Shown here: in pieces, positions 46,890 to 49,224 of the stretch | Numbering within the stretch: the first letter of the stretch is position 1 | How the letters are laid out: every line of letters starts with the position of its first letter | NCBI RefSeq assembly: GCF_900086705.1 | Contig: NZ_LT575483.1 | Coordinates: 3,639,533 to 3,703,532, forward strand | Direction of reading: 5' to 3' | DNA length: 64,000 bases | DNA from: Massilibacillus massiliensis | Lineage (GTDB): Bacteria; Bacillota; Negativicutes; FLKF01 | Program-made: the position numbers and the translations under genes | The notes under the pieces: generated by a model | Seen by the model: the letters and a program-made list of their open reading frames with translations, nothing else | Database searches by the model: none | What the model was told of the DNA's origin: nothing

Positions 46890-46917
46890 TTTACTTATTG
46901 ATGTATTTTGTTATAAT
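46890..46917 (+). promoter_or_regulatory. Promoter of the left toxin-like cassette
   Basis: TTTACT (46890-46895), a 16-base spacer and TATAAT (46912-46917). The same promoter occurs in the right copy with only a few substitutions. Confidence 0.7.
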
Positions 46918-46981
46918 ATGTCTATAGGTGTTACCATAAAACGGTAGGCGGTTAATATTGCCCCCGAAAGGGGGTATGCCC

Positions 46982-47074
46982 ATGAATGAGACGAATGTAA
47001 CATTGTTGCTTTTTATTGTTCTTGTGGTACTTATACAAAAAAAAGTAACCGCCCCTAGCTACCAACTGAAGTGA
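46982..47074 (+). pseudogene. Left, decayed copy of the small hydrophobic peptide gene
   Basis: It begins MNETNVTLLLFIVLVVLIQKK, the counterpart of the right-hand copy, behind the same CCCCC-GAAA-GGGGG hairpin (46961-46974). An eighth A in the run at 47037-47044 (seven in the right copy) removes the stop codon, so the frame runs on for nine codons into the left end of the inserted IS. The sequence homologous to the right copy ends inside the terminator loop. The right terminator arm and the antisense promoter are missing, replaced by the IS. Confidence 0.7.
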
Positions 47075-48932: not shown

Positions 48933-48946
48933 AAAAATCCCAGTCC

Positions 48947-48974
48947 TTTACTTATTGGCGTATTTTGCTATAAT
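48947..48974 (+). promoter_or_regulatory. Promoter of the right (intact) toxin-like cassette
   Basis: TTTACT (48947-48952), a 16-base spacer and TATAAT (48969-48974); transcription would start near 48981. Confidence 0.75.
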
Positions 48975-49017
48975 ATGTTTATAGGTGTTGCCATAAAACG
49001 GTAGGCGGTTAAACTTG

Positions 49018-49031
49018 CCCCCGAAAGGGGG
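49018..49031 (+). promoter_or_regulatory. Hairpin hiding the Shine-Dalgarno sequence of the peptide gene
   Basis: CCCCC-GAAA-GGGGG forms a five-GC-pair hairpin with a stable GNRA tetraloop. The right arm is the Shine-Dalgarno sequence of the peptide gene, seven bases before ATG 49039. Sequestered ribosome sites are typical of type I toxin mRNAs. It is identical in the left copy. Confidence 0.75.
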
Positions 49032-49038
49032 TATGCCC

Positions 49039-49104
49039 ATGAATGAGACGAATGTGACCTTGGTACTTTTTATCATTCTTGTGGTAATTTTACAAAAAAA
49101 GTAA
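49039..49104 (+). CDS. 21-residue hydrophobic peptide, candidate type I toxin
   Basis: Encodes MNETNVTLVLFIILVVILQKK: a short polar start, a continuous hydrophobic stretch of about 12 residues and a QKK tail, the form of small membrane-active type I toxins. An upstream in-frame ATG at 49033 is too close to the ribosome site. The peptide is conserved with a few conservative substitutions in the left copy, and the ORF ends inside the left arm of a bidirectional terminator. It does not match a named toxin family that I recognise. Toxicity is inference from architecture. Confidence 0.6.
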   Translation: MNETNVTLVLFIILVVILQKK

Positions 49105-49189
49105 GCCGCCCCCAGTGACCAAACTAAGGCGGCTTACTTTTTACCTACTTATGTTGGGGCTGACCGCTTATCGGTAGCACCTTATTTAT
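49094..49189 (-). ncRNA. Candidate antisense RNA (type I antitoxin)
   Basis: A minus-strand promoter (49196-49224) would start transcription near 49189, running toward the peptide gene. The RNA would end at the shared terminator, where the A run at 49094-49100 supplies a minus-strand T run. It would overlap the last codons and 3' part of the peptide mRNA by about 45 bases. Its 5' part can fold as GCTACCG-ATAA-GCGGTCAGC. Ends are predicted, not observed. Confidence 0.6.
49101..49142. terminator. Bidirectional terminator shared by the convergent RNAs
   Basis: A 10-bp stem GTAAGCCGCC (49101-49110) / GGCGGCTTAC (49128-49137) with a 17-base loop. TTTTT follows on the plus strand and seven T on the minus strand. 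In the left copy only the left arm remains. Confidence 0.88.
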
Positions 49190-49195
49190 ACATTT

Positions 49196-49224
49196 ATTAT
49201 AACCATAATTTTATAAAATATCAA
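49196..49224 (-). promoter_or_regulatory. Antisense promoter with 17-bp spacer
   Basis: Read on the minus strand: TTGATA (49224-49219), 17 bases, TATAAT (49201-49196). This is close to the consensus sigma-A promoter and faces the peptide gene. The left copy has no equivalent. Confidence 0.75.

Follow-up and report, generated by a model that had tools for sequence, protein, structure and literature searches.

In the TxpA/RatA and BsrG/SR4 systems, the antisense RNA overlaps the 3' end of the toxin mRNA and the duplex is cut by RNase III. For the Fst/par system, a published account (PMC7472228) describes, in par(pAD1), convergent promoters, a shared two-way terminator, and a hairpin at the Shine-Dalgarno sequence (SD). 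A cassette of similar plan lies at positions 48942-49224 of a 64,000-nucleotide (nt) stretch of the Massilibacillus massiliensis genome, hereafter the window. This cassette is probably a type I-like toxin-antitoxin module of a new family, in which the RNA frame stays much the same and the peptide varies, and in which toxicity and antisense control are presumed functions. By analogy, the module would work like Fst/par or TxpA/RatA. This reading is drawn from the many copies of the cassette and their wide distribution, the kept -10 boxes, the in-frame ratio of nonsynonymous to synonymous differences (pN/pS) of its open reading frame (ORF), the lysine or arginine tails of the peptides, a peptide that scores as Hol_Tox, the end-to-end homology of copies, and the UUGG or UUUG loops of the antisense terminators.

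An earlier note on this DNA had proposed two promoters, a hairpin hiding the SD, a 21-residue ORF, and a two-way terminator, all of which were found where it had placed them:

48947-48974, plus strand: promoter of the peptide mRNA, TTTACT-16-TATAAT, with TTTACT at 48947 and TATAAT at 48969-48974, matching the consensus at 10 of 12 positions

48984-49009, plus strand: leader motif GGTGTTGCCATAAAACGGTAGGCGGT, the 5' hairpin of the mRNA, kept across cassettes

49018-49031, plus strand: hairpin CCCCC-GAAA-GGGGG, whose 3' arm is the SD, fully paired in the predicted fold

49039-49104, plus strand: ORF translated as the 21-residue hydrophobic peptide MNETNVTLVLFIILVVILQKK, with a pN/pS of 0.33 over 77 pairs of relatives

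49096-49142, both strands: shared two-way intrinsic terminator with a perfect 15-bp stem, T runs on both strands, and covariation in the stem, overlapping the end of the ORF

49094-49190, minus strand: predicted antisense RNA, with approximate ends set by the analyst, placed by a match to the RNA model R1 and by its predicted fold

49156-49181, minus strand: antisense 5' motif GGTGCTACCGATAAGCGGTCAGCCCC, a leader-like hairpin with a C-rich stretch

49196-49224, minus strand: antisense promoter TTGATA-17-TATAAT, with TTGATA at 49224 and TATAAT at 49201-49196, matching the consensus at 11 of 12 positions

The model R1 was built from 35 antisense halves and contains 17 base pairs; 7 of these, all within the terminator stem, show double-sided change. 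The model matches the window at 49076-49183 with 96.8 bits (E 2.2e-22), this copy having been part of the alignment. The two RNAs, with expected lengths of about 165 and 97 nt, are predicted to overlap across the terminator with perfect complementarity; the overlap foreseen in the earlier note thus stands, with a length of ~50 nt rather than about 45. The start codon is suggested to be the ATG at 49039, since it is kept in relatives, whereas a second ATG further upstream, at 49033, shares the frame, among the copies read in this genome, only in those of the window type (L001, L002, and L003). Evidence from the single locus is weak, because a promoter scan of 1.2 kb gave 8 promoter-like sites against 5.6 expected in shuffled sequence, only mildly above chance, and it is conservation that lifts it.

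This conservation was followed in 155 unique antisense motifs, a set that includes the loci used for R1. The leader motif was found upstream of 123 of them, compared to 2 of 155 in a reversed-sequence control, and was also present at 85 of 112 places from pattern scans in which the antisense motif alone guided the choice. On the toxin side, 98 of 121 cassettes carry a -10 box 3-10 nt upstream of the leader, while four control windows of equal width gave 12-23 of 121. On the antisense side, 111 of 123 have a -10 box 3-17 nt upstream of the motif (offsets 3-10 alone, 48 of 123), against 4-25 of 123 in control windows that span 8 offsets and are narrower than the 15 tested; a -35-like hexamer matching at 4 of 6 positions or better is found at a single fixed spacing in 44%. 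A hydrophobic ORF of 16-60 amino acids was picked in 121 of the 123 cassettes with a leader, a count that is not independent, as hydrophobicity was a filter of the pick and a few picked frames look wrong (clustering singletons). A stem of 6 bp or more is present in 115 cassettes, and in 90 it begins no later than the last base of the stop codon. Among 68 representative cassettes, the SD run is predicted to be paired in 61, and the fold around it has a median z of -2.77 relative to mononucleotide shuffles when the 3' part of the leader is folded alone. The parts kept across loci are both -10 boxes, the leader, the SD-hiding hairpin, the 5' hairpin of the antisense RNA, and a selected ORF running into the two-way terminator.

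The ORF is under purifying selection at the amino-acid level in its own frame only. In addition to the value given above for the peptide class of the window, the in-frame pN/pS is 0.36 over 35 pairs within the genome (in both sets the pairs are not independent) and 0.18-0.41 in five identity bands, whereas the two shifted frames, examined in three bands, gave 0.78-0.99 and 1.7-2.6. The earlier note had made homologous cassettes with an ORF conserved at this level a test of its proposal, and such cassettes turned out to be widespread. The peptides themselves are of several types: MNDTNLTLLFFIILVFAIKKD in the window class, MTLYDFLSLVFLVAICIIAIKS in the Anaerovibrio type, MLTIEGLIAVISLCLTCFGLGYTIGSNKTQK-like peptides in Lachnospiraceae, MVTYADLFQFGLLIVAIIGLVYKIAHKK in L124, and MEIVEHIDTILEWISKILVIAVTIRNFHKEK on viral contigs. 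A lysine or arginine is found within the last five residues in 108 of 113 distinct peptides; single-linkage clustering of these was uninformative, with 108 of 113 merged. Four of 25 scanned peptides match Hol_Tox at E<=1, and one of them, from the Lachnospiraceae contig L124, exceeds the Pfam cut-off with 29.2 bits against 23.3, and also shows similarity below the cut-off to the NCBIfam families ComI and PepG1. The remaining weak family matches of cassette peptides are below the cut-off wherever one is shown, and hidden Markov model searches for the peptide class of the window gave no match above a shown cut-off.

The very short peptides, their many copies, and their widely different sequences would also suit a small membrane peptide without toxicity that regulates a membrane protein or partners with one, the antisense RNA setting the dose of the peptide. 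This alternative is considered unlikely: the same frame carries the Hol_Tox-scoring peptide of L124, copies whose surroundings were read adjoin unrelated genes, and so tight a lock on expression is typical of toxins.

The toxin-antitoxin reading also draws on the number of copies in M. massiliensis itself, where a DNA search and the reading of loci revealed 14 intact-looking cassettes (the window copy, L002, L005, L006, L007, L008, L022, L010, L011, L013, L016, L015, L107, and L012). L012 is a divergent copy whose ORF was read by eye, and the frame of L006 has lost its usual stop and extends to 30 residues. There are also five remnants: the copy that comes first in the window, L004/L106, L009, L108, and L110. 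R1 matches 18 places in this genome at E<=0.1, one of which is the opposite strand of a cassette (L109); at another, L111, no cassette parts were seen. The homology between unlinked copies commonly begins 20-40 nt upstream of the leader, in some cases no earlier than the leader itself, and stops at positions 650-656 of the stretch under comparison, which is the place of the antisense -35 (645-656); in some pairs it extends further. L013 and L016 align only at their two ends (82.6% and 82.4%, E<=1e-8), with the coding middle unaligned, which indicates that the cassette ends are the better-kept part, and L016 aligns with L008 and L022 partly or wholly through the middle at 67-72%. Multiple copies with inverted ends, some of them adjoining an insertion sequence, could instead point to a miniature mobile repeat, whose inverted ends would be transposon ends and whose ORF would be incidental. 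The homologous unit, however, continues past these ends as far as the promoters, and selection acts on the ORF at the amino-acid level, making this explanation highly improbable.

Beyond this genome, R1 has matches at E<=0.01 in 196 of the 380 class genomes searched, distributed over 62 of 102 genera, with at most 10 candidates scored per genome (the class is taken to be Negativicutes because named carriers have the same peptides); counts near E 0.01 will take in chance terminators and orphan halves, and a hand count at E<=1e-6 gave 136 of 380. The DNA of one copy matched 39 of the 380 at E<=0.001, with at most two candidates scored per genome. In this collection, the family and order of M. 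massiliensis are represented by its genome alone. In a sample of 398 genomes from the phylum, R1 matched 20 at E<=1e-6, of which 8 belong to the class (own genome included) and 12 lie outside. Thirteen stretches from these 12 genomes, none used in building R1, were read: the leader is present at 3-6 errors in 8 of 13, compared to 0 of 13 reversed controls, and a hydrophobic ORF follows in 7 of the nine stretches with a leader if L257 is counted. When named genomes were scanned for the antisense core, at least 120 stretches matched. Among the 80 titled matches listed, Lachnospiraceae predominate, and Anaerovibrio, Selenomonas, an uncultured Veillonellaceae bacterium, Clostridium aminobutyricum, and others are also found, as is one Bacteroidales metagenome-assembled genome that may reflect contamination. 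Named carriers include Butyrivibrio, Roseburia, and a plasmid of Eubacterium eligens as well as Anaerovibrio, with Anaerovibrio lipolyticus, Roseburia porci, and E. eligens ATCC 27750 as culturable examples, and seven viral contigs contain a match. On the plasmid of E. eligens ATCC 27750 (NC_012780, 160143-160474), the cassette stands between two MATE genes at a place where the gene table, itself incomplete, lists no gene, and four matches follow one another on a Monoglobus plasmid. No match was obtained in phage records searched with a copy from M. massiliensis, in plasmid records searched with an Anaerovibrio-type copy, or in plasmids searched by tblastn with the Hol_Tox-like peptide.

In the mechanism proposed for the module, the right-going RNA would encode the 21-residue membrane peptide, whose overproduction probably damages or depolarises the membrane, and the leader hairpin is predicted to close the ribosome site of this mRNA. 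The left-going antisense RNA, a transcript suggested by promoter conservation, would meet the mRNA across the two-way terminator, the two being perfectly complementary for ~50 nt. The loops of the two terminators are probably the first to pair, after which the antisense 5' end, with its copy of the leader hairpin and its C-rich stretch, might cover the SD. As a result, translation would be blocked and the duplex would decay. Regarding the first contact, 50 of 99 antisense terminator loops hold UUGG or UUUG against 20 expected (loops over 26 nt excluded), which would fit a U-turn kissing site; in par, it is the toxin RNA that carries the U-turn (PMC7472228).

Regarding the second contact, both RNAs begin alike, with a GGUGCUACC hairpin followed by a C-rich stretch, so that the DNA contains an inverted repeat. 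In the mRNA, this stretch closes the SD hairpin in the predicted fold, and the antisense one could close the SD in trans. Across the 68 representatives, antisense nt 18-45 bind the cognate ribosome site at -9.56 kcal/mol compared to -8.95 for permuted partners (11 of 5000 permutations). The preference is found in the 47 cassettes outside Negativicutes (30 of 5000), a grouping assigned by eye, and reversed controls were not significant (979, 1284, and 3346 of 5000). In sequence, the antisense 5' end resembles its cognate leader slightly more than it does other leaders (197 of 5000). It is thus conceivable, though put forward with some doubt, that the antitoxin RNA is half antisense, acting at its 3' part across the terminator, and half mimic, its 5' leader copy displacing the SD-closing arm in trans, the frame being a general chassis for differing membrane peptides across Bacillota.

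Several observations weigh against the proposal of a type I-like module or parts of it. The 21 Negativicutes-type cassettes, the kind present in the window, show no preference of the antisense stretch for the cognate SD (1975 of 5000). A specific pairing of the two 5' hairpins was also considered and is unsupported, with no cognate preference (4879 of 5000), and for these two reasons the mimic half is not settled. Among the antisense motifs, 32 of 155 are without a recognisable leader, and the -35 of the toxin side is not conserved, as no peak was seen there. Outside the class, 4 of the 13 stretches show no recognisable leader, L257 has one only at 8 errors, a level also reached by 2 of 13 reversed stretches and hence that of chance, and the chassis loci L255 and L260 are without a hydrophobic peptide. 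Finally, the window peptide matches no Pfam or NCBIfam family, in agreement with the earlier remark that it falls outside recognised toxin families.

In the window, the cassette is followed by a gene read by eye as an EamA-type transporter and preceded by two further features:

46912-47071, plus strand: another cassette (leader 46927-46952, ORF from 46982), whose terminator is cut by an insertion sequence and whose ORF reads on to 30 residues

47072-48932, no strand assigned: IS3-like insertion sequence between the two copies, with ORFs and inverted ends

The IS3 label comes from the analyst's reading of the ORF layout. This insertion sequence ends 14 nt before the promoter of the second cassette in the window, and similar ends adjoin the cassettes L002 and L110 in the same genome. 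A short ORF followed by a terminator and located upstream of a putative transporter gene recalls a leader peptide or attenuator controlling the downstream gene. Such a role is hardly credible here: the copies read adjoin different genes, some of them stand in tandem, and the opposing promoter is conserved.

Elsewhere in the genome, on contig 6, a stretch of 16 kb (L266, 3780500-3796500) holds the intact L011, L005, and L007 and the decayed L009 and L004, adjoining unrelated genes such as one for a chemotaxis receptor. The same contig has an array resembling clustered regularly interspaced short palindromic repeats (CRISPR) at L265:7814-10178 (about 3235313-3237677), with 36 repeat cores spaced 66-68 nt where read; a cassette starts about 260 nt beyond it and another follows 1.3 kb later. 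Among the 12 larger ORFs neighbouring the array, eight were scanned and none gave a cas-type Pfam match. The antisense halves at L042, L108, L252, L253, L256, and L259 lack a recognisable leader or an intact peptide, and are candidates for decayed cassettes or free-standing antitoxin RNAs. At L260, the frame after the ribosome site reads, by eye, MSMRITLRIGTFTFTIELKRTHK.

The earlier note had called the cassette undescribed, and this holds in the resources searched: the locus has no significant family match in Rfam, and no description was found in the open-licence PMC literature, a scope outside which key subscription surveys of type I systems lie. Should the toxin-antitoxin reading be right, a large proportion of Negativicutes would carry an unnamed family, often in multiple copies, as would some Clostridia, with commensals of gut and rumen among the carriers; protein-based searches miss this family because of the tiny size and the variability of its peptides. 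The conserved RNA frame would then provide a handle for finding the cassettes and naming their peptides, and it poses the question of why a toxin mRNA and its antisense RNA share their start sequence.

Compared with known systems, the cassette resembles Fst/par in its convergent promoters and shared two-way terminator, as judged from prediction and conservation, in the predicted occlusion of the SD by a 5' stem-loop, and in a small hydrophobic peptide with a charged tail. These features could make it a plain member of Fst/par, in which pairing takes place at direct repeats (DRa/DRb) on either side of the translation start. In the cassettes, however, these repeats are absent and both RNAs start alike instead. 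The longest direct words shared by the leader and the antisense side average 6.0 nt against 5.6 in shuffles and reach 8 or more in 2 of 115 cassettes, while inverted words average 8.9 and are longer than direct ones in 110 of 115 (equal in 4), a figure that is partly circular, as the cassettes were chosen by motifs sharing GGTGCTACC. Independent evidence that the RNAs start alike is the presence of the leader next to motifs that had been selected on the antisense side only. At the Fst locus, the longest direct word is 14 nt and the longest inverted one 8, and R1 has no match there at E<=10; nor is any Fst family among the Pfam and NCBIfam matches of cassette peptides. Membership in Fst/par is therefore judged very unlikely, and the Fst/RNAII layout proposed in the earlier note applies to the convergent RNAs and shared terminator, but not to the direct repeats.

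The Ibs toxins of Escherichia coli, of about 19 residues, are similar in length to the cassette peptide, but Sib RNAs cover the whole toxin mRNA, unlike the antisense RNA predicted for the cassette. With TxpA/RatA and BsrG/SR4 (Hol_Tox, PF16935), the cassette shares a predicted antisense RNA overlapping the 3' end, and the same chassis carries the above-cut-off Hol_Tox peptide of L124 and weaker matches elsewhere. The bsrG leader of Bacillus phage SPBc2 likewise has a CCCC...GGGG hairpin at the SD (L263:555-603), and the longest word it shares with the antisense side is inverted, 10 nt compared to 7 direct. R1 scores are 44-97 bits for cassettes, and 15.9 and 11.3 bits (E 0.03 and 0.44) for the bsrG locus. 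The likeness of the leaders is possibly a hint of distant kinship. The window peptide differs in having no Hol_Tox match, as does the whole genome at E<=0.01. In general plan, the cassette appears to belong with type I toxin-antitoxin loci with convergent RNAs, in a layout that is not exactly that of Fst/RNAII; since it departs from Fst in two tested features and from TxpA/BsrG in the peptide of this locus, it is best placed as a probable new family with an RNA frame of its own.
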